Shown: in pieces, positions 23,342-45,017 of the stretch
Layout: each line of letters starts with the position of its first letter
How positions within the stretch are numbered: position 1 is the stretch's first letter
NCBI GenBank assembly: GCA_029212785.1
Contig: JARGOG010000009.1
Coordinates: 1 to 64,000 of the forward strand
Reading direction: 5' to 3'
Source of the DNA: Thalassobaculaceae bacterium
GTDB taxonomy: Bacteria; Pseudomonadota; Alphaproteobacteria; Thalassobaculales; Thalassobaculaceae
DNA length: 64,000 nt
Made by a program: the position numbers and the translations under genes
The notes under the pieces: model-generated
What the model saw: only the letters and a program-made list of their open reading frames with translations
Database searches by the model: none
Told to the model about the DNA's origin: nothing

Positions 23342-23364
23342 TGGCAAGACCCGCTCCGAGTGCT

Positions 23365-23395
23365 GGAACGCCGCCTCCGGCGGAGGCGACGTTCC
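23365..23395. terminator. Strong GC-rich hairpin between convergent operons
   Basis: GGAACGCCGCCTCCG (23365-23379) is followed after one base by its near-perfect complement (23381-23395, one mismatch). It lies in the 115-base gap between the transporter operon and the protease operon, which converge here. There is no clear U-run, so it may act as a bidirectional end or an mRNA-end stabiliser. Confidence 0.55.
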
Positions 23396-23456
23396 GGGTT
23401 GGGCACCAGGTGGCGATGGCGCTTGCGGCTCCGCGGACCCGGTTGGCCGGGACCGG

Positions 23457-23726
23457 TCAGTCATCGGGGCCGAGGGTGAAGGTCACCGTCTCGGTCGTCG
23501 CCTCGATCGCGACCTCGAGCGTCTGCTGGGAGTATCCGGCGGCTGAACAGACGAACTCCAGACCAGGCCCTTCGGGCAGACTCAGGAACGACTGCCCCCG
23601 CTCGTTGGTGACGACGGTCAGATCGCGCAGGACGGGCGGGCCGGCCCGGATCCAGATCCGCGCGCCCGGAACCGGGGCGCCGGTGCTGTCGAAGACCCAG
23701 ATCTCGACAATGTGCTCTCGCGGCAT
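23457..23726 (-). CDS. Small carboxypeptidase-regulatory-like beta-sandwich protein
   Basis: An 89-residue protein with a single CarboxypepD_reg / Ig-like fold: VEIWVFDSTGAPVPGARIWI, then NERGQSFLSLPEGPGLEF and ending TVTFTLGPDD. Such domains are binding or folding modules with no active site. There is no signal peptide. The ATG follows directly on the stop codon of the double-protease gene (TGA-ATG), so translation is coupled and the protein may be an accessory or inhibitor of that protease. That role is inferred. Confidence 0.72.
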   Translation of the reverse strand: MPREHIVEIWVFDSTGAPVPGARIWIRAGPPVLRDLTVVTNERGQSFLSLPEGPGLEFVCSAAGYSQQTLEVAIEATTETVTFTLGPDD

Positions 23727-26276
23727 TCAAGACGACTCTTCCATCCAGTTGCTGATGACCTGAAAGACGGCGCCATTGATACGGACCGCGGAGTTGACCC
23801 CCGTCCGTCCCGCGCCGTAGGCGTGAATGCCGGCGGCGACGGGCCGGCCGTCTCGGCTCGCCCGCAAAACCGGCGCGCCGCTCTGCCCGCCACTGGTGTC
23901 CGCCGGGTAATAGATCTTCTGCGGACCCACCGATGACACAGCGGCGGCGTGCTCCCATAGCGTTCCGGCCGGCTTCGATATGGGATATCCGGCGATCAAC
24001 ACGGGAGACGTCCGCAGGTCCGCCGGGCTGACGGCTTCTATTCCCAGATGCCCGACCTTTTCCCCCAGACCCGTCGGCAGAATGATCGCGCCATAGTCAT
24101 GCTCGGGCTTTCCGTCCTGGGTCCAGCCGGTGACGGAGCGGAAGACCGTGCTGGCGACCCAGCCGAAGGGCAGCGAGCGACCGTTTCGGCCCGGCATGAC
24201 GTCGATCCGTCGCACCCAGCCGTTGGCCCGCGGCTTCCGGTCGTTTCTGATGAAGACGACATGCCCTGCCGTCACCACCGTGCGCGGGCCGGCGAACCAT
24301 CCGGTTCCCCACCAGATTGACCCGTCCGCCGCTGTGATGCGCAACGAGGCGATCGCCCGCCAAGGATAGAGCGTGGTGTCGTTCAGCTGATCCCGGTCGT
24401 CGCGACCGACCACTGTCAATGGACCCGCCGGCGCTTCGATCGGTGAGGCGATGTCACCGAATGACGCCGCCGCGATGTCTCGCTGTGGACCGGCGACCTC
24501 GGCTTCGGTCAGGGCGCTCGGCTCGAGGGTTCCGGTGAACGCGGCCGGGGCGGTGGAGAGGGCGAGTCCGGATGACCAGTCCTCATCGCTGCCGCCGGTG
24601 GTTCCCGTGGCGCCTTCATGCCGCGCCAGAACGGCCGGCCGGTCGCCGGGTTCGGTCTCGACGTTGCTTGCCTGGCTGTCGGCGCCCGTCAGGGTAGCCG
24701 GTGCCGGCAAGCCTCGGGCCATCTGTACCGCGCGGCGGAGGTTGAGGCGCCCATAGCCCATCATGGGGTTATGACCGTCTTGATAGGTCACCGTGCCGAC
24801 CTTGTCGGCCGAGTGCCGCAGGATGTCGCGGACCTCGACCTCCGTGAGCGAGGGATCCGCCGAGAGCACGAGCGCTGCCGCTCCCGCGACCATCGGCGTG
24901 GCGGAGGACGTCCCGTTGAAGTCGGTGACATAGTTGCCGGCGGATCCGGGCGACCGGTTCCGGCCGTCGCGGTCGATGTTGTCGGTCGTGGCGATCAGGA
25001 CCCCCGGCGCCGCAATATCCACCGCCGGCCCCTGGTTGGAAGCCCAGTTCTCGCCGTCGGCGCTCTGCCGTGTCTTGGGTTCGTCGTACTGATTGGTGGC
25101 GCCGACCGTCAGGACATCGGACAGGCTGGAGGGGAATGACGGGGCCCCGCCATCATTGCCGGCGGCGCAGACGACGACGGCGCCCAGGCCGTTGCGGCCC
25201 TTGGTGCGGGCATCGGTGATCGCCCGCTCGATCAGGGTCGATGGCAAGCCTCCGCCCCAACTGTTCGACAGTACATCCGCACCGTTTCGCCATGCCCAGT
25301 CGATCGCCCGCGCGATCGACGCGTTGTCGGTCATCCAGAGATACCGTGCCCTGTTCTCGACATACATCGAGCGCGCGATCCGCACGGCGATGATCCCACA
25401 GCCGCCGGCGATGCCTTTGATGCCGATCGCGTTGTGCGCGGCGCCGGCAATCCCGGCGCAGGCGGTGCCGTGCGAATCCCAGGAATTGGGTTCCTGATAG
25501 GTATCGTCATCGATGCCGTCATAGGTGCCGACAAGGGCCGGAGACAGGTCCGGATGCCGGGTGTCCACGCCTTCGTCCAGGATCGCGATGCGCAGGCTCG
25601 GATTCGCACGCTGATACCGCCAGGCTTCGTGCGCCTGCGTCAGGTCGAGGGCGTACTGGCCGATCGCCGTCGCGTTGGTGGCCCCGGCCGTGCCACTGGC
25701 GGAGGGGATTGGCTGGCCGCTGTGAGGGGCTCCCGAACGCCCAGAGCGGAGCAGGCGTTCGCCGAAGACCGTGAAGTTGGGCTCGGCGAAGGCAACGCCC
25801 GTTTCGCCATCCAGTGCCTGTGCCGCAACGAACGGATCGGCATCGACGGGCAGTTCCACCACGTGACCGTCGGCGACACCGCGGACCCGCCGGCCGCCAT
25901 GGATGGCGAGCAGCCGGTCCATTTCCTCGACGGTCACATCCGTGTCGAAGCCGACGATGAGCGTGTTCGTGGCGGCGCCGAAAACCCCGCCATGCTTGAA
26001 TACCGGGCTGCAGCGGTCGACCGCCGCGTCGTCGCCGACAGCGGCTGCGGCTTCCTCGATCCGTTCGGCGAGAGGGCCGGGGCGCGGGGCGGTCCGGAAC
26101 AGGGTGAGCTTCTGCTTGGGGATCTCGATCCGGTCGTCGAACCCCGAGATCTCCATGCGGTTCATCGCGGCGCTGCGTGCGCTGTACGGTGCCGGCTCAC
26201 GGAACCGGACCGCCAGAAGATCCGTGGCTATGTCCAGTCTTACGGGCTGCCCGTTGACCTTGTACTCGTATGCCAT
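23727..26276 (-). CDS. Double serine protease: subtilase (S8) fused to trypsin/V8-like domain
   Basis: An 849-residue protein. After an N-terminal prodomain-like region, residues ~225-520 form a subtilase with Asp234 (AILDEGVD), His269 (DSHGTACAG), oxyanion Asn374 (AAGND) and Ser457 (NGTSSATPMVAG). A ~110-residue linker follows. Residues ~635-845 form a trypsin/V8-like domain with His672 (VVTAGHVV), Asp727 (HDYGAI) and Ser799 (TSGGQSGAPV). All six catalytic residues are present, so both halves should be active. No signal peptide or anchor is visible, and the N-terminus (MAYEYKVNGQPVRLD) looks cytoplasmic or exported by a non-Sec route. It lies 78 bases after the lipoprotein gene. Confidence 0.9.
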   Translation of the reverse strand: MAYEYKVNGQPVRLDIATDLLAVRFREPAPYSARSAAMNRMEISGFDDRIEIPKQKLTLFRTAPRPGPLAERIEEAAAAVGDDAAVDRCSPVFKHGGVFGAATNTLIVGFDTDVTVEEMDRLLAIHGGRRVRGVADGHVVELPVDADPFVAAQALDGETGVAFAEPNFTVFGERLLRSGRSGAPHSGQPIPSASGTAGATNATAIGQYALDLTQAHEAWRYQRANPSLRIAILDEGVDTRHPDLSPALVGTYDGIDDDTYQEPNSWDSHGTACAGIAGAAHNAIGIKGIAGGCGIIAVRIARSMYVENRARYLWMTDNASIARAIDWAWRNGADVLSNSWGGGLPSTLIERAITDARTKGRNGLGAVVVCAAGNDGGAPSFPSSLSDVLTVGATNQYDEPKTRQSADGENWASNQGPAVDIAAPGVLIATTDNIDRDGRNRSPGSAGNYVTDFNGTSSATPMVAGAAALVLSADPSLTEVEVRDILRHSADKVGTVTYQDGHNPMMGYGRLNLRRAVQMARGLPAPATLTGADSQASNVETEPGDRPAVLARHEGATGTTGGSDEDWSSGLALSTAPAAFTGTLEPSALTEAEVAGPQRDIAAASFGDIASPIEAPAGPLTVVGRDDRDQLNDTTLYPWRAIASLRITAADGSIWWGTGWFAGPRTVVTAGHVVFIRNDRKPRANGWVRRIDVMPGRNGRSLPFGWVASTVFRSVTGWTQDGKPEHDYGAIILPTGLGEKVGHLGIEAVSPADLRTSPVLIAGYPISKPAGTLWEHAAAVSSVGPQKIYYPADTSGGQSGAPVLRASRDGRPVAAGIHAYGAGRTGVNSAVRINGAVFQVISNWMEESS

Positions 26277-26354: not shown

Positions 26355-27770
26355 TCAGGACTTGTCGTCGTCCTGTTTGTCGTCCTTGGCGCTCAGTCCG
26401 CCGAGGCAGGCCGTCATGGAATCGACCAGACTCTTGACGGTACTGGCCGAGGCATCGGCCTGTTCCAGGAGCTGAACCTGCGCCTGGATCTCCTGCCGTC
26501 GGGTCCCGATCCGGCTGGAGAATGCGTCCCGGGCCGCCTCGGGCATCGACTGTCCAGTGCCGCTGGAGGTCATGGAGAGCTGTTCCATCGTGGCTTCCGC
26601 CTCCATTGCCGCGGTCTCCGCCTTCTCGGCATCGTCCTTGGCATCCTCGATGGTCTCGTCGAGTGTCTCGCCGGTCTTTTTCAGCGAGCCCTGGACCGTG
26701 CTGTAGTGGTCCTTCAGCGCCTTCAGGGCGGCGTCGGGATCGGCGCTGGTCTTGCTCAGCTGCTGCATGGTCGCGGCGATGATCTGGTCCGTGGCGCCGA
26801 TCAGCCGGTTGGCCCGGGCGAGGGTGAGTGTGACGGCCGCCGATTCGAACGCACTTTTCGCGGTGGCGACGCGGTTGGTGGACGCCTGCAGATCGGCGAT
26901 CCGGGCGTCGAACATCGAGGTCCGCCCGATCAGGACCGGATCCTGCGAGGGGAACACCGTCGGCGCCACAGTCATGAAGTCGGATGCCAACCCGCCGGAA
27001 GCGGGATTGTCCGAGCTGTCGGAGGTGTTGGGGTCGGACGGTGCGGCCTCCTGTTGCGCGGAGCGGACACGCCCGGTTCCGCCGCGGACATCGATGTTCT
27101 GCAGGGCCCGGATCGCGCCGAGAAGCGGATCGTTGCGGGCGCCGTTGCCCGGCGAGGGGGCCGCCAAGGCGGTCTCCGCCAGCGGGCTGGACATGCCGGA
27201 AGGGTCGTTGGGGGGAGTTCCGTCGTCGTCCCCGCCACCCCCGGTCGACGTGTCGCTGGCGAGGGTGCCCGTGCGGATCGCGCAGCTGATGGCCGCGACC
27301 CCCTTGGCATAGATTTCCTTGCGGTCGGCGATCGGCAGTAGGCTACTGGCTCCATAGGCGCTGCCGCCGACCAGGCCGGCGCCGAGCAATGCGTCCGTGT
27401 GCGAGCGGAAGATTCCGAAGGCAAGGGCGGCGATGCCGCTGCCGAAGGCGATCGTACCGGTCGCCGTCTCGTACTGGTCGAGGCCGACCAGTCGCTCGGA
27501 CATCTCCTTGCGCTTCTCCCGGGCGTAATCCAGCGCGTCGACAAATGTCGGCTCGGCCGGCAGTTCATCGCCGGGGATCACGTAGGGATTGGTGATCGCG
27601 CTGCAGGCGCCGAGCGTCAAAGCCGCGGCGCCGGCGACCAGACGTTTGACGTGCAGAGCATAGGGCGCGTCGGTACGGCACAGGCGCCGGCCCGATCGGT
27701 CAAGATTGTCCCGCAAGGGCGGCCGTACCGGCGCCTTGGCGAATGTCGTCTCGCTATGTCGTGTCACCAT
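26355..27770 (-). CDS. Lipoprotein of unknown function with long pre-signal segment
   Basis: A 471-residue protein. The ATG at 27770 is fixed by an AGGAGG (27776-27781) 5 bases away. A lipobox (AALTLGAC) places the acylated Cys near residue 56, after an unusually long, Arg-rich, ~40-residue leading segment. Residues ~90-150 contain two hydrophobic stretches (GTIAFGSGIAALAFGIF, GAGLVGGSAYGASSLLP). A Gly/Asp-rich linker follows, then a long alpha-helical region with coiled-coil-like Ala/Glu/Lys composition and an acidic end (KDDKQDDDKS). I do not recognise the family. It lies upstream of the double protease in the same direction. Confidence 0.75.
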   Translation of the reverse strand: MVTRHSETTFAKAPVRPPLRDNLDRSGRRLCRTDAPYALHVKRLVAGAAALTLGACSAITNPYVIPGDELPAEPTFVDALDYAREKRKEMSERLVGLDQYETATGTIAFGSGIAALAFGIFRSHTDALLGAGLVGGSAYGASSLLPIADRKEIYAKGVAAISCAIRTGTLASDTSTGGGGDDDGTPPNDPSGMSSPLAETALAAPSPGNGARNDPLLGAIRALQNIDVRGGTGRVRSAQQEAAPSDPNTSDSSDNPASGGLASDFMTVAPTVFPSQDPVLIGRTSMFDARIADLQASTNRVATAKSAFESAAVTLTLARANRLIGATDQIIAATMQQLSKTSADPDAALKALKDHYSTVQGSLKKTGETLDETIEDAKDDAEKAETAAMEAEATMEQLSMTSSGTGQSMPEAARDAFSSRIGTRRQEIQAQVQLLEQADASASTVKSLVDSMTACLGGLSAKDDKQDDDKS

Positions 27771-27923
27771 GTCGTCCTCCTGGTCCCAAGCTCCCCCTCC
27801 CATCGAGGTCGGATGCCTTATGTCGTCAGGAGACAGGCCGGCTGTTTGCCTGGCGTGAACCGGGTGTCATCGCGGCGTCAAATCCACGGACGCATGGAAT
27901 TTCGTCGAGGGCGCGTGTCGATG

Positions 27924-27993: not shown

Positions 27994-30198
27994 TCAGACG
28001 CCGAAACGGCGCCGGTAGTCCGGCCGGCCCACCGGCGGTTCCGGCGGCAACAGCCGGCCATCGCCGACCCGCGCGTGTCCGAGATATCGCTGACGCTGCT
28101 GGTCGTCGGTGCCGATCGGGTCGAAGGGGCCCTGGGGGCCGGTCGGTGTTCCGGCCTCGGACTGCCCTACCCGGGCGAGGATCCTTTGGCGCGCGGTGCC
28201 CGAGCGTTGGCCGGTGCGGATCTCGCCGGCAAGGGCGCGGGCGACGGACGGTGCGGCGACGCTGGTCCCGGATTGGGCGTGGTTCTGGCCGGTCTGTGTA
28301 CCTGCCGCCAGCACCCCCCGGCTGTAGCTCCCCGCCTCCGACACCGCGGACAGGTCTGGACCGTCCGGGACGGTTCCACCGATCCGTCGATGCGTCGGCC
28401 CAGCGCCCGAATAGTCGGCCATGTTGCCGTCCGACCACCTGTATCCGCCGACCACGACCGGCCCGAGTGTCGTGCAATAGGCGTTGAAGGTTCCCCGCCG
28501 GGTCACCGATGACGTCTGCTGTGTCGGGCTGACCCGACGCCGGCCATTACTGCTCTCGAATATGACGTAATCCGGGTGATCGATGTAGGACTGACGGCCG
28601 GTCGGCCGCTGCCGGATCAGGGAGTCGTCGCGGCGAACCCGGACGTCGATCGGGTCGCCGGGGTTCAAGCCGGGCGCATCTATCCGGATTGTCCAGAGAC
28701 CGTGCGGGCAGGTGGGCTGACCGAGGGTCTCGGTCCCTGTCGGGCGGATGGCGACGACGATGTGCTCGCGCGGACCGCGACCCGCCCCCGTGTCGAAGCG
28801 ATGGTAGACGCTGGCCAGGACGTCGCTTCCCACGACCCAGTCCAGGTGGTGCCCAACCTGGCTCTGTACGGGGGGCGGAGCCATGCCGGTCGGAGGCAGC
28901 ACGGAGACGCTGATCTTCTGCTGTTCCGTGGGGGATTGCGGAAGCCAGATGTGCAGATAGCTTGACGTCTTGTCGTCCGGTTGGACCCGCCACGGGATTT
29001 CGACGCTGTTGTTTTCGCCGACCGTCGGTTTGGCGACCACGCGCCACAGGTGACTATTGCCGACGGGGAGCACGACCTCGCACTCGGTGTCGCCGTTCGG
29101 ACCGCGATAGGCTTGGAGAAAGCTCTCGATGGTACTCTCCATGAGGCCTGATCCGTCATGCGGCCCCGCCGTCGTCCCGAAGCTGAAGTTGAGGACGAGC
29201 GGCAGCAGCCCGGCCGTCGTCGGGTCCTGGCCGCGCCGCTTCGCGACCGCCTGGGACAGCCGTCGCGCCCGGTGCAGGATCTCCTTCAGGGCAAGGTCCA
29301 GCGCGGGTGCCATGAACACATCGGAGCGTTCGGCGATCGCGGCGGATGCCAGTTGGACCCCGATGATCGGGCGCCGCTTTGCCTCGGCAAGCTCCTCCTG
29401 CACCCGGTAGTCGTAGCCGGCGGCCACGTCGAGCACATGGGTTCCATGCGAGCGGCGGAACATCACCGCCTGTCGGCTTTCCCGGCCGGTATCGATCATG
29501 GCAACGGACGGCGATCTGTAGAGCCGATCCTCGTCGTTGCCATGGCGGCGCAGCAGTGCGTCGATCTCCGATTTCGTGTGGTCCCGGCCGGTCGGCGGGC
29601 CGCGGCGTCCGTCTGTCGAGGGCAGGGCCCTGGCGTTCATGTCCCAGAGATACCAGAACCGGCTGCGGTCGGGCGCGAGCCGGAACCGCTCGTTGGCAAA
29701 CCCGATCCCGTCATCGATGATCGCCATGATCACGAGGTCCTCGTCGAGGTCGAAATCGGAGACGTCGCCTTCCGGTTCCTCTTCTCCGGACCCGGTTTCC
29801 TGCGGCGCCGGCGGGACGGTGTCCTCGGCCACGACCGAGCCGATGCCGGCGACGCGACCACCGGATTCTTCGGCGGATTCGGCGATTAACTGCGCGTCCC
29901 GGCTGTGGGCGATCCCGGTAACCCGTATCTCCTCGGCATCTCCGTTGGCCGGACCGGTTCTGACGAAGGCGCGCAACGCCTCCAGAGAACCGGCGCCGAC
30001 GGCCAGTTTCTGAGCGATTCCGGGATCGGTTGCGTCAGGCTGCTCGGTCCCCGACAGGAGGGCGGCCGCGCCGGCCCGAGTCAGTTGCAGGGTGAGCGGA
30101 TGGTACCCCTCGCTTTCCATCACCACGTGGACCCAATGCTCTTCCGGATAGGGGTCGCTCGGAAGTGTCTGGACGGATTTCCATTTGCCGCTGGTCAT
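27994..30198 (-). CDS. Subtilisin-like serine protease (S8)
   Basis: A 734-residue protein. Residues ~155-660 hold a subtilase domain with Asp162 (AIIDDGIG), His251 (RRSHGTHVLDVAAG), a likely oxyanion Asn381 (LPVGNSH) and Ser646 (SGTSVAAPSVARAL). A ~200-residue insert with beta-rich sequence separates the oxyanion and Ser regions. An acidic, Glu-rich linker (residues 135-154) precedes the domain. There is no signal peptide. The gene overlaps the PAP2 gene upstream by 4 bases (ATGA) and ends at a strong terminator. It is only distantly similar to the S8 domain of the neighbouring double protease. Confidence 0.88.
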   Translation of the reverse strand: MTSGKWKSVQTLPSDPYPEEHWVHVVMESEGYHPLTLQLTRAGAAALLSGTEQPDATDPGIAQKLAVGAGSLEALRAFVRTGPANGDAEEIRVTGIAHSRDAQLIAESAEESGGRVAGIGSVVAEDTVPPAPQETGSGEEEPEGDVSDFDLDEDLVIMAIIDDGIGFANERFRLAPDRSRFWYLWDMNARALPSTDGRRGPPTGRDHTKSEIDALLRRHGNDEDRLYRSPSVAMIDTGRESRQAVMFRRSHGTHVLDVAAGYDYRVQEELAEAKRRPIIGVQLASAAIAERSDVFMAPALDLALKEILHRARRLSQAVAKRRGQDPTTAGLLPLVLNFSFGTTAGPHDGSGLMESTIESFLQAYRGPNGDTECEVVLPVGNSHLWRVVAKPTVGENNSVEIPWRVQPDDKTSSYLHIWLPQSPTEQQKISVSVLPPTGMAPPPVQSQVGHHLDWVVGSDVLASVYHRFDTGAGRGPREHIVVAIRPTGTETLGQPTCPHGLWTIRIDAPGLNPGDPIDVRVRRDDSLIRQRPTGRQSYIDHPDYVIFESSNGRRRVSPTQQTSSVTRRGTFNAYCTTLGPVVVGGYRWSDGNMADYSGAGPTHRRIGGTVPDGPDLSAVSEAGSYSRGVLAAGTQTGQNHAQSGTSVAAPSVARALAGEIRTGQRSGTARQRILARVGQSEAGTPTGPQGPFDPIGTDDQQRQRYLGHARVGDGRLLPPEPPVGRPDYRRRFGV

Positions 30199-31454
30199 GA
30201 TCCTACCCTCGCGTGGCTCGCCGCCAGGTCACTCCATTCCCTTTTGGCTTTTCTCCAAAGCCAGTTGAGGGGCGTGCGGTTGCCCTCGCTGTCTTCGTCC
30301 TGGGTGGAGTCGCCCGGAATGTCGAACAAGGGGCGGCGGTCGAGGAAAGGCATCTGAGGTGTGGTCCGATTTGAGAGCATGTCCTCCATGATGCCGTCCC
30401 ATGGAAAATCGAGATCGCCATAGTGCCGGGCCTTGAACTTCCAGCCGCTGAAGCTCGCGCTTTCCTTGCCCCGCGCGCGGGCGAGGAAGAAGTCTCCAAG
30501 AACCGTGCCCAGGACCTGCCCGCAGGCATTGTCGATCGGAAAATGCACGCCGGCGACGACCCGGTTCGTGGCGATCCGAGCGGCCATGCGGAAGAGCTGC
30601 TCACGGATCTTCCGGTCGGGCCCGTAGAGCTGTGTGTCGAGAGGCTTCGACAGCTTTGTCAGGACGCGGGCGATCATAAAGGATTCCACCGCGTGTCCGC
30701 TTGGATAGGTGCCGTGGCCGGGGGTCGGGATCATCGGATTGACCTGGGCGCTGTATTCGATCGGCCGGCGGCCGGCGACTGTGTGCTTGATCCGCATTTC
30801 CAGCGCGACGACCGCCCGCAGCAGGGCGGCGATCAGTTCGTTTGTGTACCGGGTGCGTTCGCGATGCAGAAAGCCGATCCCGGCGAAGAAATCCACATGG
30901 CCGCTGAGCTGGGCCAGGATCTCGGCGGACCGGTCCCGGCGGAGGTCGGCATATCCACGGACATGCTTGAGCTGGTTGCAGCGGATTTCCTCCGGTGTCG
31001 GCTGAACGATCTTGGCGATCTGCCACGACGCGAAATAGTCGCTGCCCTGCGGTATACCGGGGTCGGGGCGGTTGATGATCTTGGACGTGGGCAGATACTG
31101 GACCTTGATCGTCTCCTGCTTCTGGCCGCCGCCGGGGGGCGCGTCGGTCTGGTGGCTGACATGCAGGCCGCTGATCGTGTCGAGGGCAAGGATGTGGGCG
31201 CGGACCCGCGGCGACCAACGCTCCATCTCCTTGCTGCTGTTCGGCTTCCCCTGAGACGGGGAATGGATGGGGTTCAGCCACGGGCCGACGATCCCTTCAT
31301 GGGCGCTGAGCAGGGCGCCTGATGTGTAGGGCGACAGCATTCGCCCGCCGAAGCGGTCGGTCTGCATGACACCGCTGTTCTCTCCATTCTCTCCGTTCTC
31401 GCCATTTTCCCCGTTCTCACCGTTCTCGCCGTTGAGTGCTCCCCAAATGCTCAT
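30195..31454 (-). CDS. PAP2 / vanadium-haloperoxidase-type phosphatase
   Basis: A 419-residue protein starting at the ATG at 31454, which follows a GAGGAG. The PAP2/haloperoxidase signature is complete: Lys223-x6-Arg230-Pro231 (KHTVAGRRP), PSGH at 251-254, and Arg298-x5-His304-x3-Asp308 (RVVAGVHFPID). These residues bind phosphate or vanadate in acid phosphatases and haloperoxidases. The spacing and the soluble character (no membrane helices) favour a haloperoxidase-like or soluble acid phosphatase fold, and activity cannot be decided here. The N-terminus carries six Gly-Glu-Asn repeats. It is translationally coupled to the subtilase gene. Confidence 0.82.
   Translation of the reverse strand: MSIWGALNGENGENGENGENGENGENSGVMQTDRFGGRMLSPYTSGALLSAHEGIVGPWLNPIHSPSQGKPNSSKEMERWSPRVRAHILALDTISGLHVSHQTDAPPGGGQKQETIKVQYLPTSKIINRPDPGIPQGSDYFASWQIAKIVQPTPEEIRCNQLKHVRGYADLRRDRSAEILAQLSGHVDFFAGIGFLHRERTRYTNELIAALLRAVVALEMRIKHTVAGRRPIEYSAQVNPMIPTPGHGTYPSGHAVESFMIARVLTKLSKPLDTQLYGPDRKIREQLFRMAARIATNRVVAGVHFPIDNACGQVLGTVLGDFFLARARGKESASFSGWKFKARHYGDLDFPWDGIMEDMLSNRTTPQMPFLDRRPLFDIPGDSTQDEDSEGNRTPLNWLWRKAKREWSDLAASHARVGS
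31377..31433 (-). repeat. Tandem 9-bp coding repeat (Gly-Glu-Asn)
   Basis: About six copies of a 9-base unit, variants of GGCGAGAACG, encode the N-terminal GENGENGENGENGEN tract of the PAP2 protein. Copies differ mainly at third positions. Because the unit is a multiple of three, copy-number changes would alter tract length but not frame. Confidence 0.8.
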
Positions 31455-31886
31455 CTCTCTCTCCTCACCAACGGCGCCCGCCGACTCACGGGTCGGCCGA
31501 GGGCGCCGGTCAATTGCAGGTGTTGGGAGGATGAGGGGTGCGGTTGAACTAAACAACTAGAGCGGGCAGTTTTTGACGGAAGATTGACGCTAGGAAGAAT
31601 CTCATACGCCGATAGCACGTAAGGCGGACAATACTTAAATTCACAAGACGGCAAGTGACGGGACGAGTTGGTAGACGAGTCAATTCAGGCCGCAATTGAA
31701 CCGAGTGCTCAAAGACCGGCAGGCTCGTCGGGATAGCTAAGCCGATTGTTGTGATGTCCCGGTCGACTCCCACCCATAGAAACGCAGGAAAAATAAAAAT
31801 ATATGATGGTGGTGGACTCCAATCGATATCGTGATAGGTGTGTTTTGGTCATGTCAGCAACCACATAGTCAGGCGCGGTTGAATAG
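31455..31886. other. AT-richer divergent intergenic region
   Basis: 432 bases without a convincing gene, clearly richer in A/T than the surroundings (for example 31780-31830). It must hold promoters for the PAP2-subtilase operon and for the SARP-like regulator. The 9-mer GCGGTTGAA occurs as a direct repeat near both ends (31540-31548 and 31875-31883). No clear -35/-10 pair is called. Confidence 0.5.
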
Positions 31887-33509
31887 TTGCGTAACTCGGT
31901 GGGGGTAGAGAAAGCATTGCGGATTTTCACCATCGGTCCTCTGCGGGTAGAGGGGCCGAATGGGGAAGATCTGACTCCACGGAACACCGGGCCTCAATGT
32001 CTCCTGGCCATCCTGGCATCGTCCCCCGACGTTCGGCGATCGCGCGAATGGCTTCAGGCGAAAATCTGGAGCGACCGCTTCAAGGAACAGGCGTCCGGCA
32101 GTTTCCGGCAGGCTCTCTACAGCCTGAGAAAGTCGCTGGGGGAGGCCGGCAACTGTGTCGTCGGTGACGGTACGATGCTGTGGCTCGATCGGTCATCGGT
32201 GTGGGTCGACCGCTATGACGGCGATCTCGTCGCGCTGTTCTCGCAATCGGCGACGGACGCTCCGGAGTTGCTGCATGGTCTGTCCAGCAGCGATAGCGAG
32301 TTCCAGAACTGGATCCGCGACGAGCGGGCCGAGTTCGAGCGCCAGACGGAGCCGCTGCGGGTGCAGGCCAAGCGGCGCACGGTTACCAACCGACCCTGGC
32401 TCGTCCTTCTGGCGCCCCAGGCATCGACGGTGGGCGACGGGGCTTTTCACGCCCGGGTCGTCGCCGACGCGATTGCCGGCCACATAAAGGACCAGGGATT
32501 CGCCGATGTCGTCGACGGACCCAGGGCCGGCGTCGGGATCGGGTTGCGGGTGGAGGCGGTCGGGGGTGCCGGCCATAGCGTCCTGCATGTCTCGCTGCGC
32601 GAACCGCTGACCGACACGATGCTCTGGTCGGTCTCGCAACCGGTCTATGTCGATGGCGGGGAGCGCCCCGACACGGCGCGCCTCGACTTGCTGATCAATC
32701 AGGCGGCGGACATCGCGGCGTTTCAGATCGGCATGCTCTCCAAGGAGCGCGGCGGGGAGTCCGCGACCACTCTCGGCATCGAAGCCGTCGGCCGGATGTT
32801 CCGTAGCGGCCTCGACGATTTGGACGTGGCCGATACCCTGCTCGACCAGGCCTATGAGCAGACCGGCCGCGGAATCTTTCTCGCCTGGCAGGCCTATCGC
32901 GAGACGTTCCTGGTCGGAGAGCATCTGGCGGATCGCAGTGCGCAACGTGACAAGGTCAGGGAACTGATCGCGCGGGCCATCGAACTGGAACAGTACAACT
33001 CCACGGTTCTGGCGCTCGCGTCCTATACCGCCTGTTTCGTGCTCGAAGAATACCGCACCGGTCTGGAATTGGCTGAGCGCAGCCTGAGCTATAACGCGAG
33101 AAACCCGCTTGGCCGCATCCACCTGGCGCGGGCGCTGTCTTACCTCGGTGACCACGGCAAGGCGTATGAAGAGGCGACGCGGGCGTGTCAGATGGCTGGA
33201 CCGGGGCCGTACCGGTACGTGTTCGATTTCATCGCCGGCGTGGCCGCGGTCATGGTCGGACGGCGCGAGGAGGCGATGCGCCACCACGAAACGGTCCGTC
33301 TGATGAAGCCGGGATTCCGCGCCGCCCGGCGCCAGCTCTTCGCGCTCTATGGCATCGAGGGCATGACCGACAAGGCGCGGGGAGAGTTCGTTGCGCTGCG
33401 TCGCCTGGAACCCAATTTCTCCCTGTCGCTGCTGCGCGACCCCGACTATCCGGCGAAGGGCCTGCAGAGTGCAGGGTGCCTCGCATTCAACAACGACGAG
33501 TTCAATTGA
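31887..33509 (+). CDS. SARP/AfsR-like transcriptional regulator
   Basis: A 540-residue protein (TTG at 31887; GTG 31899 or TTG 31917 are alternatives, and none has a strong ribosome site). Residues ~10-100 form an OmpR-like winged helix of the SARP type (ALRIFTIGPLRVEG, then SREWLQAKIWSDRFKEQASG and SFRQALYSLRKSLGE). Residues ~385-520 are helical and TPR-like (LELAERSLSYNARNPLGRIH, ALSYLGDHGKAYEEATRAC). The middle part resembles the alpha/beta region found between these in proteobacterial homologues. Regulators of this class activate neighbouring operons, so the divergent protease operon and the downstream lipase/oxidase cluster are candidates. No kinase-receiver residues are seen. Confidence 0.78.
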   Translation: MRNSVGVEKALRIFTIGPLRVEGPNGEDLTPRNTGPQCLLAILASSPDVRRSREWLQAKIWSDRFKEQASGSFRQALYSLRKSLGEAGNCVVGDGTMLWLDRSSVWVDRYDGDLVALFSQSATDAPELLHGLSSSDSEFQNWIRDERAEFERQTEPLRVQAKRRTVTNRPWLVLLAPQASTVGDGAFHARVVADAIAGHIKDQGFADVVDGPRAGVGIGLRVEAVGGAGHSVLHVSLREPLTDTMLWSVSQPVYVDGGERPDTARLDLLINQAADIAAFQIGMLSKERGGESATTLGIEAVGRMFRSGLDDLDVADTLLDQAYEQTGRGIFLAWQAYRETFLVGEHLADRSAQRDKVRELIARAIELEQYNSTVLALASYTACFVLEEYRTGLELAERSLSYNARNPLGRIHLARALSYLGDHGKAYEEATRACQMAGPGPYRYVFDFIAGVAAVMVGRREEAMRHHETVRLMKPGFRAARRQLFALYGIEGMTDKARGEFVALRRLEPNFSLSLLRDPDYPAKGLQSAGCLAFNNDEFN

Positions 33510-33978: not shown

Positions 33979-35298
33979 GTGATCACCGTGGCAATGCCGC
34001 CGTATCCAACGATCGTTGTGCCGGGAATCACGGCATCTTACCTGCTTGACGGGTACCCGCTGCCGCCGGAGACGATCTGGTCGGTTCTTACCAAGGAATA
34101 CGAGCGCGCCGCCCTGCATCCCGACGATCTTCGGTTCGAGGCCGCCGAACCCGCCCTGGTTGCGGCCGGTCAGGTTTTCGAAATCGCATACCGGGAGCTG
34201 ATCGAGGAGCTTCGGCACAACCTACGCAGCAAGTCGGACCAACCGGTTCCGGTCTTCCCTTTCTCCTACGACTGGCGGCAGCCCCTCGATATGACGGAGC
34301 GGCGGCTCGGGCGGTTCGTCGAGGAGGTGATCGCGCGTACCAAGCTCCTGCGTCATTACGACCGCGCGGGATATGCCGACGACCCTAAGGTGAACCTGCT
34401 CGGGCACTCGATGGGCGGGCTGGTGATTGCCGGTTATCTCCAGCGCGCGGGGAACAGCCACCGGGTGGCCAAGGTCGCCACGCTGGCGGCCCCATTCCAG
34501 GGGTCGTTCGAGGCGGTCATCAAGGTCACGACGGGGACCGCCGACCTCGGTGAGTCGGCCCCGAGTTCGCGCGAGCGCGAGGCCTCGCGGGTGACCCCGG
34601 CGCTCTACCATCTGCTGCCGAGCTTCGCGAATGGCGTGATGGTTCCGCCGAGCCTGCCAAGGTCGCTCTACGACCCTGGAATCTGGCAACCCAGCATCAT
34701 CGACACGATCAAGGAATACATCCGGCTGCGCGGGCTCAGCGGCACCGGCCGGGACGACCAGGCGCGCGCCCTGTTCCAGGGCTTGCTCGAGGTGGCCTCG
34801 GGGCACCGCCAGCGCATCGACAGTCTCGATCTGGGCGAAATCGGTCTGGTCGCGGATGACTGGCTCTGCGTCGCCGGCGTCAACACCAAGACGCGCGTGC
34901 GTCTGACGGTGGAGGACACCGGCAAGGGGCCGAATTTCCGGTTCATGACGACGGATCGCGACAACCGCTGGGGCGATCAGGATCCGCAGCAGCGGCGCCT
35001 GACAGGCGACGGCACGGTTCCTTTCGAAGGCGCGGTTCCGAAGTTCCTTTCCGAGGCGAACCTGATCTGCGTGACGCCGGACGACTACGGCTACTGGGAG
35101 ATCCAGGACCGGACGGTCTCCGCCGTCGCCGGCTTCCACGGAATCCTGCCGAACATGGACATGCTGCACCGCCTCGTCGTCGCTCATTTCACCGGGCGGC
35201 CGGACCGGCACGGCAACATCTGGGGTCGGCCGGCGCCCGGAATTTCCAAGGACGATTGGCGGCCGGCGGTGTCCGGACTTGCAACGCCCGATGACTAG
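33979..35298 (+). CDS. LCAT-type alpha/beta-hydrolase (lipase/acyltransferase-like)
   Basis: A 439-residue protein; the start may be GTG 33979, GTG 33988 or ATG 33994, since an AGGGGG sits close upstream. The nucleophile elbow is GHSMGG with Ser144, and the opening IVVPGITASYLL and FSYDWRQPLDMT match the lecithin-cholesterol-acyltransferase group. The late TGDGTVPFEGA and GFHGILPNMDML regions supply candidate Asp and His. Such enzymes cleave or transfer acyl chains of phospholipids or sterols. No signal peptide is visible. It lies 51 bases upstream of the cytochrome gene in the same direction. Confidence 0.85.
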   Translation: MITVAMPPYPTIVVPGITASYLLDGYPLPPETIWSVLTKEYERAALHPDDLRFEAAEPALVAAGQVFEIAYRELIEELRHNLRSKSDQPVPVFPFSYDWRQPLDMTERRLGRFVEEVIARTKLLRHYDRAGYADDPKVNLLGHSMGGLVIAGYLQRAGNSHRVAKVATLAAPFQGSFEAVIKVTTGTADLGESAPSSREREASRVTPALYHLLPSFANGVMVPPSLPRSLYDPGIWQPSIIDTIKEYIRLRGLSGTGRDDQARALFQGLLEVASGHRQRIDSLDLGEIGLVADDWLCVAGVNTKTRVRLTVEDTGKGPNFRFMTTDRDNRWGDQDPQQRRLTGDGTVPFEGAVPKFLSEANLICVTPDDYGYWEIQDRTVSAVAGFHGILPNMDMLHRLVVAHFTGRPDRHGNIWGRPAPGISKDDWRPAVSGLATPDD

Positions 35299-35349
35299 CG
35301 GCGACCGAACCCGCCGGCCGCAGCGCCCGCATTGAAGGAGGACGCATCC

Positions 35350-38130
35350 ATGCTGTTCGTCAGACCGCTCGCCGTCTCGATCATCCTGTCCGCCGGGATC
35401 GTTCTTACCGGCTGCGACGGCCCACAGCCGGGCGAGGTTCTGGACGAAGCGATGATCGCCTGTCTTGCCAGCGAACCGGTCCAGGCGCTGCCGAAGGATC
35501 AGGGCGAGCGGTACTGCCGGTCGGGCCAGCAGCTTCCGGGTTCCGACAGCGACTTCCTGAAGGACATGGATCGGGGCTGGGGGCCGGCGAAGGTCCATGC
35601 GGAACTGGCCAACTCCCTTCAGCTCGAACCAGGTCTTCTGGTCGAGAACGGTCTGACCGAGGAGGTGGTCTACGATTCCTACAACCGCGGCCGCAACAAC
35701 TGGGTGATCTGGAGCGGGGGCAATGACCGGCTCTGGGACTACATGGCGAACAACACTTTCGGCGCCTTCGATCTGCTGAAGACGCTGTCGTCGCATCCCG
35801 GCATCCGGTACTGCGCCAACAAGAATGACGAGGGTGGCGACGACAACACGGTGCAGTCTCCACCCGGCTACTACGCATATGAGGACGATGCGTGCGAGGG
35901 CGCCGACCGCGAGTTCCGCGAGGTGTCCCGCGACAACAGGTGGAAGTATCTCGGCCTGGTCAACGAGCCCGGTTTCAAGAAATGGGAGCCGAAGGCCGGC
36001 TGCGAGACCGATCCCGAACCGGTTGACGGTGCGGATCCGAACCAATGGTGCGGCAACAAGGATCGCTGGGGATTGTGGCTCGACGCCCGCGACGGTCTGG
36101 CTGATCCGTTCGAGAGCGAGGTCGACTATCCCGGCGTCAAGATCGGGGCGCGGGGCGAGACCGACATCCATGGGGAGACATTCCCGGTCGGCTCCTATTA
36201 CGGCTACGGCACCGGCATCGTCGGGCTGCGGCTGTTCCCGAACCCGGATTTCGACAAGGACGCCCAGGAGGCCTGGGATCCGTGGCGCTATTACAACGAC
36301 CCGGACTATTACAAGCAAAAGGACCTGGTGCGGCCCTACCGGGTCGGTATGTCCTGCGGGTTCTGCCATGTCGGCCCGAGCCCGGTCGCGGCACCGGCGG
36401 ATCCCGAGAATCCGCAATGGACCAACCTGACGTCCAATCCCGGCGCCCAGTATTTCTGGATCGACCGAATCTTCTTCTGGGATCCGGAAGGGCGGCACCG
36501 GAATTTCATCTACCAGCTGTTCCACACGTCGCTGCCGGGGTCGCTCGACACCTCCCTGGTCTCCAGCGACAACATCAACAACCCGCGGACCATGAATGCG
36601 GTGTACAGCGTGGCCGCCCGCCTCGACATGGCCAAGCACGCCCGCGAGCTGCTGACCGGCGGGGAGCTGAACAACAAGCAGTTCAACGACTATCAGCGCA
36701 CCGCTTTGCTGGGGGACCTGTTCGAGGCGCCCTATGTGAAGACGCCGCATGTCCTCAAGGACGGCGCGGATTCCGTGGGTGTGCTCGGCGCGTTGAACCG
36801 GGTCTATCTCAACATCGGCCTCGCCAGCGAGGAGTGGCTGCTGCACTTCAAACCGCTGATCGGCAACCTGCCCGGCAAGCGGATCACGCCGATCGAGATC
36901 TCGGTGCTGGAGAAGATCTCCGGCTACTGGAACGCCAACGTCGCCCAGACACCGGATGTCGGCCTGTTCTTCCTGGCAAGCGCCCAGCCTGACCGGCTGG
37001 AGGACTTCGCCGTGGGGCGTCGTCTGCTGGAGGAGGAGGGTTTCAAGGCACTGGCCGCGGCCGGGACCTTCGAGACCCACGGAGCCATGCTGGAGCGCGG
37101 CAAGGTCGTGTTCGCGGAGACCTGCGCGCGCTGCCATTCGGGCAAGCAGCCGGTGCTCTGGAACCCGGGTGAGGGCCCCGCGACCGACCCGACGGCGATC
37201 GCGATGGACTCGCCCGCCTATTACGACTGGATGCGCCGGGTGGTGGCCGAGCCCGATTTCCTCGAGCACAACTTCCTGTCGACCGAAGTCCGCATTCCGG
37301 TGACCGAGCTCGACACCAATGCCTGCAGTCCGCTGGCGACCAACGGCCTGCGGGGCGACATCTGGGACAACTTCACCTCCACGACCTACAAGGAACTGCC
37401 GGCGGTGGGCAAGGTCACCGTCCATCATCCCAAGACCGGAGAGCCGTGGGCGTATGAGATGCCCGGCGGCGGACGCGGGTACACCCGTCCGGCCTCCCTG
37501 GTCAGCCTGTGGTCGACGGCGCCGTTCCTGCTCAACAATTCGGTTGGCGACTTCTACGGCTCGGCCAGTCCGCAGGCGCGCATGGCGTCGTTCAACGACT
37601 CGATCCGCCGGATGCTGTGGCCCGATCTGCGCCGCAAGGACTCTCTGCTCGGCGACAAGGTGCCGGGCTACATCCAGCGCACCACGTCGATCAGCAGCCT
37701 CCAGGTGCCATTCGGCTACCTGCCCGACCACCTGGAAACATTGCTGTCGGGCCCGCTGGAGCGCTGGCTGCCCTGGCTGGTCGGCGACGGCCAGGTCGAG
37801 GTCGGACCGATCCCGGAGGGCACGGCCGTCGGCCTGCTCGCCAATTTGCCGCTGGTGTCGGACAGCACCGCTTTGCGCGACAAGATCGACCACCAGCTCG
37901 AGCTGCTGAAGCTTCTGCCGACCGTCATCAAGGACCTGAAATCGATCCCGAAGGATCTCAGCGACGCGGAGAAGAACGAGCGGGCCCGCGAGGTGTTCGC
38001 CAACCTCGTCGACCCGCTGATCAAACTCAGCAAGTGCCCGGACTACGTGGTCAACCGCGGGCACTACTTCGGCAGCAACCTCGACGATCCGGACAAATAC
38101 GCCCTGATCGAATTCCTGCGGACATTCTAG
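35350..38130 (+). CDS. Diheme cytochrome c lipoprotein, RoxA/diheme-peroxidase-like
   Basis: A 926-residue protein from the ATG at 35350 (AAGGAGG 8 bases upstream). A lipoprotein signal with LTGC places the acylated Cys at residue 22. Two c-type heme sites are visible: CGFCH (336-340) and CARCH (592-596). The late RPASLVSLWSTAPFLLNNSV resembles the APYLHNGS motif of RoxA and MauG-type diheme proteins, but the His is replaced by Leu. RoxA-family proteins oxidatively cleave polyisoprene, and others are peroxidases or electron carriers. The protein is longer than RoxA by ~250 residues. It may accept electrons from, or act with, the GMC protein 15 bases downstream. Confidence 0.82.
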   Translation: MLFVRPLAVSIILSAGIVLTGCDGPQPGEVLDEAMIACLASEPVQALPKDQGERYCRSGQQLPGSDSDFLKDMDRGWGPAKVHAELANSLQLEPGLLVENGLTEEVVYDSYNRGRNNWVIWSGGNDRLWDYMANNTFGAFDLLKTLSSHPGIRYCANKNDEGGDDNTVQSPPGYYAYEDDACEGADREFREVSRDNRWKYLGLVNEPGFKKWEPKAGCETDPEPVDGADPNQWCGNKDRWGLWLDARDGLADPFESEVDYPGVKIGARGETDIHGETFPVGSYYGYGTGIVGLRLFPNPDFDKDAQEAWDPWRYYNDPDYYKQKDLVRPYRVGMSCGFCHVGPSPVAAPADPENPQWTNLTSNPGAQYFWIDRIFFWDPEGRHRNFIYQLFHTSLPGSLDTSLVSSDNINNPRTMNAVYSVAARLDMAKHARELLTGGELNNKQFNDYQRTALLGDLFEAPYVKTPHVLKDGADSVGVLGALNRVYLNIGLASEEWLLHFKPLIGNLPGKRITPIEISVLEKISGYWNANVAQTPDVGLFFLASAQPDRLEDFAVGRRLLEEEGFKALAAAGTFETHGAMLERGKVVFAETCARCHSGKQPVLWNPGEGPATDPTAIAMDSPAYYDWMRRVVAEPDFLEHNFLSTEVRIPVTELDTNACSPLATNGLRGDIWDNFTSTTYKELPAVGKVTVHHPKTGEPWAYEMPGGGRGYTRPASLVSLWSTAPFLLNNSVGDFYGSASPQARMASFNDSIRRMLWPDLRRKDSLLGDKVPGYIQRTTSISSLQVPFGYLPDHLETLLSGPLERWLPWLVGDGQVEVGPIPEGTAVGLLANLPLVSDSTALRDKIDHQLELLKLLPTVIKDLKSIPKDLSDAEKNERAREVFANLVDPLIKLSKCPDYVVNRGHYFGSNLDDPDKYALIEFLRTF

Positions 38131-38145
38131 GGGGAGGAGCCGGCG

Positions 38146-41100
38146 ATGACCGAGCAGTCAGACGGGTATGAGTACATCGTCGTCGGATCCGGGGCGGGTG
38201 GCGGCACGGTCGCGGCCCGCCTGGCCGAGGCCGGACGTAAGGTACTGCTGCTGGAGGCGGGGGGCGATCCGCATAAGCTGCGCGGCGCCATCCGCTGGGA
38301 CAAGGACCGCGACAGCCTGCCCGACGATTACGACGTGCCGGTGTTTCATCCGATCTCCACGGAGAGCGACGCGATCCGTTGGGACTACTGGGTGCGCCAC
38401 TATGACGATACCGAGCAGCAGGCCCGCGACACCAAATACTACAAGGAATGGGACGGCGAGGAGGTCGACGGCGTCCTCTATCCCCGGGCCGGTACGCTTG
38501 GCGGGTGCACCGCGCACAACGCCCAGATCATGGTCTATCCGCACAACCAGGACTGGGACGACATCGCCGATCTGACCGGGGACGCGACCTGGAATGCCGA
38601 CAACATGCGCAAGTATTTCGAGCGCATGGAGGACTGCCATTACCGGTATTTTCCACCTTGGCGCCTGATCTACAAGCTGTTCCGCTGGAACCCGACGCGC
38701 CACGGCTTTGGCGGATGGTTGTCCACCCAGAAGGCGATCCCGGGTTCGGCGCTGTTCGACCGCACCCTGGTCGACACGATCTTCGACTCCGCCAAGGTGG
38801 CGCTCAAGCGCGTCGGCCATCCCTGGAACCGCTTCCTGTGGCTGTTCGAGGGTAAGGGCGACCCGAACGACTGGCGCCTGGTGAAGCAGAACTCGGTGGG
38901 TGTGCGCTATCCGCCGCTCGCGACCCGGGGGCACCGGCGCAACGGGTCGCGCGAGTTCCTGCTCGATGTGCAGAAACGGTTTCCCGACAACCTGACGATC
39001 GAACTCGACGCGCTGGCGACCCGGGTGCTGTTCGACGACCGTAACCGCGCGGTCGGTGTCGAGTACCTGAAGGGCGAGCGGCTCTACCGGGCGCATGCGG
39101 AGCCGAGCGACAAGCCGGGCGAGACCCGCACGGCCCACGCGTCGCGGGAGGTGATTCTCTCCGGCGGCACCTTCAACACGCCGCAACTGCTGATGCTGTC
39201 GGGCATCGGGCCGAAGGAGGAGCTCGACAAGCACGGCATCGACACCCGGGTCGACCTCCCCGGCGTCGGGCGGAACCTGCAGGACCGCTACGAGGTCGGC
39301 ATGGTCTATCGCATGAAGGAGGATTGGGAGGTCCTCAAGGACGCCAAATTCTACAAGGGCGATCCGCAATACCAGCAGTGGCTGCGCAGCAAGGGCGTCT
39401 ACACGACGAACGGCGCGGTGCTCAGTGTCATCAAGCGCTCGGATCCGGCGCGCCCGCTTCCCGATCTGTTCTGCTTCGCCCTGCTGGGCAAGTTCCGCGG
39501 GTATTTCCCGACCTACTCCAAGCTGATCGTCGAGCACCACAACTACCTGACCTGGGCGATCCTGAAGGCCCATACGAAGAACACCGCCGGCGTCATCACC
39601 CTGGATCCGAAGGATCCGCTGAACCCGCGCCAGCGACCGAGCATCCATTTCCACTACTTCGAGGAAGGCAACGACACGCACGCCGAGGACCTTGAATCCG
39701 TGGTCGACGGCGTGGAGTTCGTGCGCGAGATGACCAAGGAGATCGCGCAGTTCGTCGATGAGGAGGAGTTGCCCGGACGCGATGTGACGAGCCGCGCCGA
39801 CATCCGGCAGTTCGTCAAGAACCATGCCTGGGGCCATCACGCGTCGTGTTCCTGCAAGATCGGCGTGCCCAGCGATCCGGAAGCGGTGCTGGACCACAAT
39901 TTCCGGGTCTATGGAACGCAAGGCCTGCGGGTGGTGGACGCCTCGGTATTCCCGAAGATTCCCGGCTTCTTCATCGTCACCTCGGTCTACATGGTCGGGG
40001 AGAAGGCGGCCGACGCGATCCTCTCCGATGCCGGCCTCTTGGCGGCCCCCGCGGGGCCCACGTCGTTCTTTGGCTGGATCGGTCGCTGGCTGCGGCCGAT
40101 CTGGAAATGGACGTGGCGCACGGGGGCTGTGATCGCCGCGGTGCTGGCTCTGATCGTTGCCTCGTCCTGGTTCATCTTCGAGCCTAATTCGGTGCCGTCG
40201 GACGAGAACCAGCTCATCAACGATACCGCCGTGCTGCTCTCGGACAAGCTGGAGGCCCAGTACACCGGCGCCCCGCGCTTCCTGCGCGACACCCATCCCA
40301 AGGCGAATGCCTGCGTGCAGGCGGATTTCGTCGTGAACGACAACCTGCCCGAGGCGCTGAAGGCCGGCGTGTTCAAGGGCAAGCCCGACGGCAGCCGGAC
40401 CTACAAGTCCTGGATCCGGTTCTCCAACGCCGCCGACGAAGTGACGCCGGACACAGTGGAGGACTTCCGCGGGATGGCCATGAAGCTGTTCGACGTCGCG
40501 GGCGAGAAGCTGCCGGTTCCGGCCCCCGACTACACGGGACCCGGTGCGGATGCGGATGACGACGACGAGAAGCACACCCAGGACTTCATGTTCATCGCCC
40601 ATGACTCCTTCTTCGCGGGCAACCTGCAGCACTTCCATGACTTCTTCGCGGCGGCGGTCGCCGGTGGCAGCGCGTCGCCGAACAACCTGCCGATCATCTG
40701 GCATCTGCTCACCCATCCGCGGGGGGCGTGGAACGCGCTCACGGGGCGCAAGGTATACCCGAGCATCGCCGATATCGAATGGTTCAGCGTCGCGCCGTTC
40801 AAGTTGGGGGGCGAGGACGTGAAATACGTGGTGCTGCCCTGCGAGCGGACCCAGTTCCACCCTCCCACCGCCGACCGCAGCGACGACGACTATCTGCAGT
40901 ACAGGTTGCGGGACCAGCTCGATCCGACGACCGGCAACGGCATCTGCCTGACCTTCAATATCCAGCCTCGGGCGGATGACGGCTTGCCGCTGGACAATAC
41001 GCTGATTGCCTGGCCGGAAGACCGCGCGCCCTGGACCGAGGTCGCGAAGATTCACATTGGTAATCAGCGGTTTGAATCCCGCGAGCATCAGGCGTTTTGC

Positions 41101-41301: not shown

Positions 41302-41341
41302 GGCTCATGGTCCGACCGTCATGTCATCGAGGGAGGGGCGC

Positions 41342-44240: not shown

Positions 44241-45017
44241 CTAATCCCGAGGGACGATGATCGAGCGGTCCGCGGTCGGGTGGTCGAGCGCGTGGACCTG
44301 CATGTCGAACAAAGTTTCGATCTGGTCGGGCGCAAGGCGCTCGCCGGGCTCGGTGGCGAAGGCCAGTCGGCCGTCACGCATGCCGATCACACGATCCGCG
44401 TAGAGCGAGGCGAGGGTGATGTCGTGCAGCACCATGACGACCGTGATACCCGTCTCCCGGTTCAGCCGCCGGACCAGCCGCAGCACGTCGACCTGGTGGG
44501 GTGGGTCGAGATAGGTGGTCGGTTCATCGAGCAGCAGGATCGACGTCTCCTGCGCGAGCGCGAGCGCGATCCAGGCCCGTTGGCGCTGCCCGCCGGATAG
44601 ACGGTCGACGCGCCGGTGTTCGAAGGCGGTCAGGCCGACCCGCTCGATCGCCCGGTCGACAGCCGCGTGATCCGCCTTCGACAGCAGACCGAACCGGCCC
44701 TGATGCGGAGTCCGGCCGCGGGTCACCAGGGCGCGCACGCGGATGCCTTCCGGCGTCTGCGGTGCTTGCGGCAGAAAGCCGAGGCGGCGTGCGCGGGTGC
44801 GGGCATCGATGTCCCACAGATCCCGCCCGTCCAGGGTCACGCCGCCCTCCGTGGGACGCACGATCCGGGCGAATGTCCGCAGGAGGGTCGATTTCCCGCA
44901 GCCGTTAGGACCGATGATCGCGGTGACGCCGCCGTCGGCGATGGCGAGGTCAATTCCGTGGAGCACCGCGCGTCCGGCCAGTTCGACCCGCAACCCGCTG
45001 GCTTCGAGACCTGTCAT
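44241..45017 (-). CDS. Iron-siderophore ABC transporter ATP-binding protein (FecE type)
   Basis: A 258-residue ATPase. Walker A is GPNGCGKST, the signature RLSGGQRQRAW and Walker B ILLLDEPTTYLD followed by HQVDVLRLVRRLNRE, typical of FecE/FepC. It powers uptake of ferric siderophore through the two permeases encoded upstream. The ATG overlaps the permease stop by 4 bases. Last gene of a four-gene minus-strand importer operon and convergent with the patatin gene. Confidence 0.94.
   Translation of the reverse strand: MTGLEASGLRVELAGRAVLHGIDLAIADGGVTAIIGPNGCGKSTLLRTFARIVRPTEGGVTLDGRDLWDIDARTRARRLGFLPQAPQTPEGIRVRALVTRGRTPHQGRFGLLSKADHAAVDRAIERVGLTAFEHRRVDRLSGGQRQRAWIALALAQETSILLLDEPTTYLDPPHQVDVLRLVRRLNRETGITVVMVLHDITLASLYADRVIGMRDGRLAFATEPGERLAPDQIETLFDMQVHALDHPTADRSIIVPRD

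Follow-up and report, generated by a model that had tools for sequence, protein, structure and literature searches.

A subtilase and a glutamyl-endopeptidase-like protease in one bacterial polypeptide: a candidate one-chain zymogen cascade with a CarboxypepD_reg partner

Proteolytic cascades normally keep activator and zymogen on separate proteins, and this locus raises the question of what it means when a single gene encodes two complete serine proteases of different folds. The gene lies in a 64,000-nucleotide stretch of a Thalassobaculaceae genome (contig JARGOG010000009.1, positions 1 to 64,000), referred to here as the window. An earlier note, made by reading the sequence, had described a subtilase followed by a trypsin/V8-like protease and had suggested a domain search and structure prediction as checks. 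Both return two domains with complete triads and confident folds, and the catalytic residues, D234/H269/S457 and H672/D727/S799, are exactly those that had been named, as checked in the sequence. The domain layout stands for the two proteases and needs amendment elsewhere: a pro-region (residues 1–175) had been overlooked, and the second domain spans residues ~621–849 rather than 635–845 (Table 1).

Read on the minus strand from 26276 to 23727, the gene is a single open frame of 849 codons, with an ATG start, no internal stop and a coding-type composition in that one frame; the same frame register on the plus strand is broken by stops. Pfam places Peptidase_S8 at residues 229–509 (E 2e-48), Trypsin_2 at 657–813 (E 1.9e-7) and Fervidolysin_NPro-like at 103–167 (PF22148, E 1.6e-4), all above cut-off. 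The full-chain AlphaFold2 model, computed from a 24-row alignment, has a pLDDT of 82, with both protease domains mostly above 90; residues 1–175, ~208–530 and 626–849 are folded, and residues 532–625 are disordered (pLDDT <50). A hydropathy screen finds no signal peptide in the fusion or in S8 homologues from the tight clade around it, in agreement with the earlier reading that no export signal is visible. RTX repeats and a C-terminal sorting domain are likewise absent from the fusion.

Table 1. Coordinates of the fusion, its parts and neighbouring features (window positions unless a locus is named).
Feature	Position	Strand	Evidence or remark
849-aa fusion protein: pro-region, S8 subtilase, linker, S1B domain	23727..26276	-	ORF, Pfam, homologue L036, model pLDDT 82
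Residues 1–95: alpha/beta extension at the N-terminus, typical for the S8 clade, without signal peptide	25992..26276	-	
Residues 98–174: subtilase prodomain, I9/fervidolysin type	25755..25985	-	PF22148; VIA-align to 2zwo
Residues 196–522: subtilase catalytic domain, D234/H269/S457, oxyanion N374	24711..25691	-	PF00082, 2e-48
Residues 532–620: disordered Ala/Gly/Thr/Pro/Glu-rich linker, ~90 residues between the enzymes	24417..24683	-	
Residues 621–849: S1B glutamyl-endopeptidase-like domain, H672/D727/S799, pocket His818	23730..24416	-	
89-aa CarboxypepD_reg beta-sandwich protein, directly downstream of the fusion	23457..23726	-	PF13620, 2.5e-8, above cut-off
482-aa protein with lipobox-like LGAC motif, 78 bp upstream of the fusion	26355..27803	-	start tentative
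Divergent second S8-family protein	27994..30198	-	PF00082, 1.6e-7
PAP2-superfamily (haloperoxidase-like) protein	30195–31454	-	
PAP2 orthologue, L105	9165–10355		
PAP2 orthologue, L106	9382–10581		
PAP2 orthologue, L107	3912–5195		

The same architecture recurs in an Anaerolineales metagenome-assembled genome of the Chloroflexota (L036), where the fusion is 818 residues long, its S8 and S1B halves are 47% and 52% identical to those of the window, all six catalytic residues are conserved, and the linker is homologous. In a Xenococcaceae cyanobacterium (L047), separate S1B, CarboxypepD_reg and S8 genes lie in a row at a contig end. The fusion is otherwise rare. Searches of the genus, the family, other relatives and the host's class and phylum found no full-length homologue, and a genome-contig scan with the fusion protein as single query gave no match. 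In all, ~1,540 genome searches yielded no third fusion, and none appeared among the matches listed for 298 Chloroflexota-class and 291 cyanobacterial-class genomes, where the top candidates per genome were scored. In trees of the S1B domain (support 99/97) and of the S8 domain (81/80), L036 groups with the split genes of L047 and not with the window, a topology compatible with two histories, a split in the cyanobacterium or fusion on two occasions.

The S8 half on its own is more widespread, and a scan with an alignment of this half gave 58 genome loci. Stand-alone homologues, ~40–50% identical, occur in Mesorhizobium, Sphingopyxis, Bradyrhizobium, Scalindua and others, and some members of the clade carry P-domains or FG-GAP-like repeats in place of the second protease. 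No neighbouring gene besides S8 itself is common to many of these loci, so that the S8 context is variable. The closest stand-alone relative, from Mesorhizobium huakuii (43.8% identity), is encoded on a conjugative plasmid with a caspase gene next to it; that region (L030, 4645–12366) comprises the S8 gene, the caspase-family gene and a gene for a 528-residue protein, with LuxR/LuxI-type genes just upstream.

In addition to its catalytic triad, the S8 half of the fusion retains the oxyanion residue Asn374, as confirmed by residue check. Mirolase (8ehe) is the structure closest to its model, with a Z score of 39.4, 39% identity and an rmsd of 2.7 over 302 residues, and comparison of residues 102–522 with unprocessed pro-Tk-subtilisin (2zwo) by VIA-align gives a Z score of 37.1. 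The prodomain is modelled on the S8 domain in the position that it occupies in unprocessed Tk-subtilisin. The model thus combines a subtilase fold, an Asp-His-Ser triad, an oxyanion Asn and an N-terminal prodomain, from which proteolytic activity and autoprocessing are predicted.

The earlier label for the second domain, trypsin/V8-like, holds and can be narrowed to the glutamyl endopeptidase (V8/S1B) group, because structural matching and sequence search agree. Modelled alone, this domain reaches a pLDDT of 93 and a pTM of 0.91; its best structural match is the glutamyl endopeptidase of B. intermedius (1p3c; Z 33.7, rmsd 1.4 over 211 residues), followed by Esp and V8 protease (Z 28–29), and phmmer matches 1p3c, 4jcn and 1qy6. 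Across a 19-row alignment, H672, S799 and the S1-pocket residue His818 are invariant, and D727 is nearly so. The S1-pocket His of the GIH motif is tied to Glu specificity in glutamyl endopeptidases. With the fold, the triad and the pocket His of this group all present in the model, cleavage after Glu and zymogen activation by trimming of the N-terminus are predicted for the domain.

The boundary between linker and second protease is where the two halves may be functionally connected. Thr621 is the first structurally aligned residue and falls on residue 1 of both mature 1p3c and mature V8 protease, and it aligns with residue 67 of Esp, the mature start of that enzyme; the predicted mature N-terminus of the S1B domain therefore lies near T621/V622. 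A V-x-G-x-D-x-R-like motif at this position is common to the S1B family. Close relatives of the host (L002, L003, L004 and L006) encode the same protease family fused to RTX repeats, and in two of them (L004 and L006) translation starts at the mature-start motif (M-T-V-K-G... in L004). V8 protease (SspA) is itself a zymogen, and a second protease performs the last of its activating cleavages (PMC12021127); both this activation and the translation starts of the RTX relatives are in keeping with a requirement for an N-terminus there. Dependence of the S1B domain on a free N-terminus is nonetheless not assured, since Asp255 of Esp, which is paired with Val67 in N-terminus-locked structures (according to the entry titles), corresponds approximately to Arg824 of the fusion in the phmmer alignment. 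SplD retains activity when its N-terminus is extended (PMC3793935). Within the linker, a short motif, DIAAAS(F/Y)G, is common to the window fusion and L036, and a variant, DIGEASFG, is found in the pro-region of the L047 S1B protease.

We tentatively favour, at a confidence somewhat short of even, a zymogen cascade contained in one chain, in which the S8 half would free the Glu-specific half near T621/V622 and the small partner would restrain the freed enzyme; activity, cleavage and inhibition are all inferred here. By family knowledge and the model, the prodomain would help the S8 domain to fold, would block it, and would then be cut off by the S8 domain itself. The active subtilase, in cis or in trans, could next cut the disordered linker near T621/V622, although Glu and Asp residues in the linker would equally permit cutting by the S1B domain. 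To judge from its fold and His818, the freed S1B domain would cleave after Glu and less after Asp. Conservation of the neighbouring gene suggests that the CarboxypepD_reg protein would then share a compartment with the S1B protease and bind to it, most likely to inhibit or guard it. With no export signal visible, the site of action would probably be the cytosol, or else the outside, reached after lysis or by another export route.

The start codon of the CarboxypepD_reg gene abuts the stop codon of the fusion (TGAATG). Small CarboxypepD_reg genes also lie downstream of an S1B protease in six other loci (L047, L139, L141, L146, L147 and L148), and a profile built from these seven small genes, the window gene included, applied to 13 newly fetched regions with S1B proteases, found such a gene in seven of them. 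At 14 of 25 distinct loci the gene is present, always 3' of the protease and on the same strand, and the pair occurs in three phyla (alphaproteobacteria, Chloroflexota and cyanobacteria). Protease and partner match in compartment in every one of the 14 pairs: eight combine two signal-less proteins, and six (L154, L155, L156, L157, L158 and L160) an exported protease with a partner bearing a lipoprotein-type signal, as judged by hydropathy and eye, with a Pfam check for three of the six. Simple significance figures overstate the independence of these pairs, because a single sampled class of Chloroflexota supplied all six exported pairs. In three of these Chloroflexota loci (L154, L157 and L158), tandem duplicated exported S1B proteases stand upstream of one common CarboxypepD_reg lipoprotein gene. 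The partner is not obligatory, since no CarboxypepD_reg gene follows the L036 fusion.

Against an inhibitor role, CarboxypepD_reg domains commonly serve in binding or have a structural function. Adjacency and matching compartment are what would be expected of a partner acting physically on the protease, and by analogy with known protease–inhibitor gene pairs, whose arrangement of a small, adjacent and compartment-matched gene is seen here, the 89-residue protein would most likely be a cognate inhibitor or guard of the S1B protease; inhibition itself is putative. A wider generalisation, which we consider possible if rather doubtful, is that Glu-specific proteases across phyla are served by a dedicated, compartment-matched CarboxypepD_reg inhibitor of a new family, and that the activating subtilase is on rare occasions fused to the protease, giving a self-activating cytosolic cascade. 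Beyond the partner gene, positions 23342–23456 form a strong predicted hairpin (~ -62 kcal/mol for the whole 115 nt), a possible two-way terminator between the convergent partner gene and an oligopeptide ABC transporter ATPase gene.

On the other side of the fusion, the 482-residue protein has no homologue in 40 relatives, and whether its gene belongs to the fusion system is uncertain. Further upstream, homologues of the divergent S8 protein adjoin PAP2 genes in three genomes (G002, G003 and G006), and the PAP2 and divergent S8 pair stands beside a regulator, without the fusion, in two genomes from the genus and another from the family. On this sequence comparison the pair is probably older at the site than the fusion, and because it is conserved without the fusion, the fusion, its partner and the 482-residue gene look like an addition to the site. 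The module kept in genus and family (27994–31556 on the minus strand and 31887–33509 on the plus strand) consists of a winged-helix/TPR-type regulator, PAP2 and the divergent S8 protein. The N-terminal run of identical triplets in PAP2 varies between orthologues, being (GEN)n in the window and (GSF)n and (GGA)n in relatives. Beyond this module, positions 33979–44209 (plus strand) encode an LCAT-like hydrolase, a di-haem cytochrome c peroxidase-like protein, a 1051-residue GMC oxidoreductase whose C-terminal part gives a weak catalase-like match, and a protein that weakly matches patatin. Positions 44241–57477 hold, judged from translated sequence, two iron-siderophore-type uptake clusters close together (FecCD-like permeases, ATPases and TonB-dependent receptors). 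An Rfam scan of 22–32.5 kb and a tRNA scan gave no matches.

Several other explanations of the fusion have to be weighed against self-activation. The earlier note had allowed that a sequencing error might have joined what homologues keep as two genes, and the cyanobacterial two-gene version is real; yet the independent, intact 818-residue Chloroflexota fusion, with its homologous linker, excludes such an error for the window, and together with the single coding-type frame it leaves almost no credence for a frameshift, an assembly error or a chimera. Very unlikely, in our view, is an arrangement in which the two domains stay joined and act independently, as in polyserase-2 and -3, with fusion ensuring their co-expression. 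Polyserases with unprocessed tandem protease domains do exist (PMC1435904), and the finding of only two fusions among the matches listed means that the family does not depend on the join, but the linker is long and disordered and falls precisely where zymogens of the S1B fold are cleaved. The two enzymes might also be complementary digestive proteases that leave the cell together through type I or non-classical secretion, with the linker as a tether and no cascade. The nearest S1B relatives, from the same bacterial family, carry RTX repeats and lack a signal peptide, in the manner of type I substrates; the P-domains and FG-GAP-like repeats of other S8 clade members are usually extracellular modules; and oligopeptide ABC transporter genes adjoin the locus on the opposite strand. 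We nevertheless consider export for digestion unlikely: the fusion itself lacks RTX repeats, a signal peptide and a C-terminal sorting domain, it has no secretion genes as neighbours, and its signal-less CarboxypepD_reg partner matches a signal-less protease.

A role in defence or programmed death, in which an infection signal would trigger the S8/S1B chain to degrade cell proteins or to activate another effector, we hold to be improbable. Its support is circumstantial: S8 and trypsin domains share a polypeptide in a predicted NucA-peptidase conflict system found mostly in alphaproteobacteria (PMC7159879), pro-nucleases activated by proteases are an established element of phage defence (PMC12799240), and on its conjugative plasmid the stand-alone S8 gene of M. 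huakuii precedes a caspase gene. There is, however, no NucA gene near the fusion, the sole Endonuclease_NS of the assembly being on another contig and none being found in the L036 and L047 genomes; no sensor, STAND/AAA or nuclease gene adjoins the fusion, and the same-strand cluster contains no sensor or NTPase gene; and PADLOC gives weak generic subtilase matches. The IetAS defence system consists of the subtilase IetS and an adjacent AAA ATPase, IetA. The fusion shows weak IetS matches (1.4e-4 and above) and no ATPase gene in its same-strand cluster, and so does not qualify as an IetAS system. A PHROGs search returned a generic phage protease family and unknowns only, phage matches included none covering 80% of the query, and the viral contigs contained no relative of the fusion. 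Among the roles that the earlier note had suggested, self-processing or a cascade in one chain fits the anatomy best, given the prodomain, the linker and the match to the mature start. If the one-chain cascade is correct, an activator and its zymogen are apparently held in one polypeptide, where activation in cis and in trans could be told apart with two point mutants. The pairing of S1B proteases with CarboxypepD_reg proteins of matching localisation, in turn, suggests a role, possibly as inhibitor, for a domain family usually listed as 'regulatory-like'.

The fusion can be set beside several known systems. Its S8 half resembles mirolase (8EHE), Tk-subtilisin and fervidolysin (1R6V) in catalytic domain and triad (Z 37–39), and has a prodomain in common with the latter two; unlike these subtilases, it has an extra domain at residues 1–95, a second protease at the C-terminus and no export signal. 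The S1B half is like the MEROPS S1B enzymes (1P3C; V8/SspA, 1QY6; Esp, 4JCN) in fold (Z 28–34), triad, pocket His and N-terminal zymogen layout, whereas a subtilase takes the place of their short propeptide and the signal peptide is missing. Human polyserases also carry several serine protease domains per chain, all of one fold there (S1A). Coupling of S8 and trypsin-like domains is not new, because in predicted conflict systems (Kaur et al. 2020, System 3; PMC7159879) the two have been described in one polypeptide, on either side of a NucA nuclease. The fusion shares this domain combination with System 3, but neither it nor its locus has a NucA-type endonuclease, and we do not assign it to that system. 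In the literature searched, we found no report of a direct fusion of S8 and glutamyl endopeptidase with an S8 prodomain, nor of a CarboxypepD_reg/protease pair. For the partner gene there are two near parallels. The Tannerella potempins are lipoprotein inhibitors whose genes stand beside those of KLIKK proteases, mirolase among them (PMC7296668, PMC4404884). Bacillus IPI is an intracellular Ig-like protein for which inhibition of the subtilisin Isp1 has been reported, with some doubt kept by its authors (PMC3901451). As in both of these, where the small protein is reported to be inhibitory, the window pairs a small protein with one protease to which it appears dedicated, and it shares gene adjacency with the potempins; the window partner differs in being a CarboxypepD_reg domain, encoded downstream of its protease, and a putative inhibitor.
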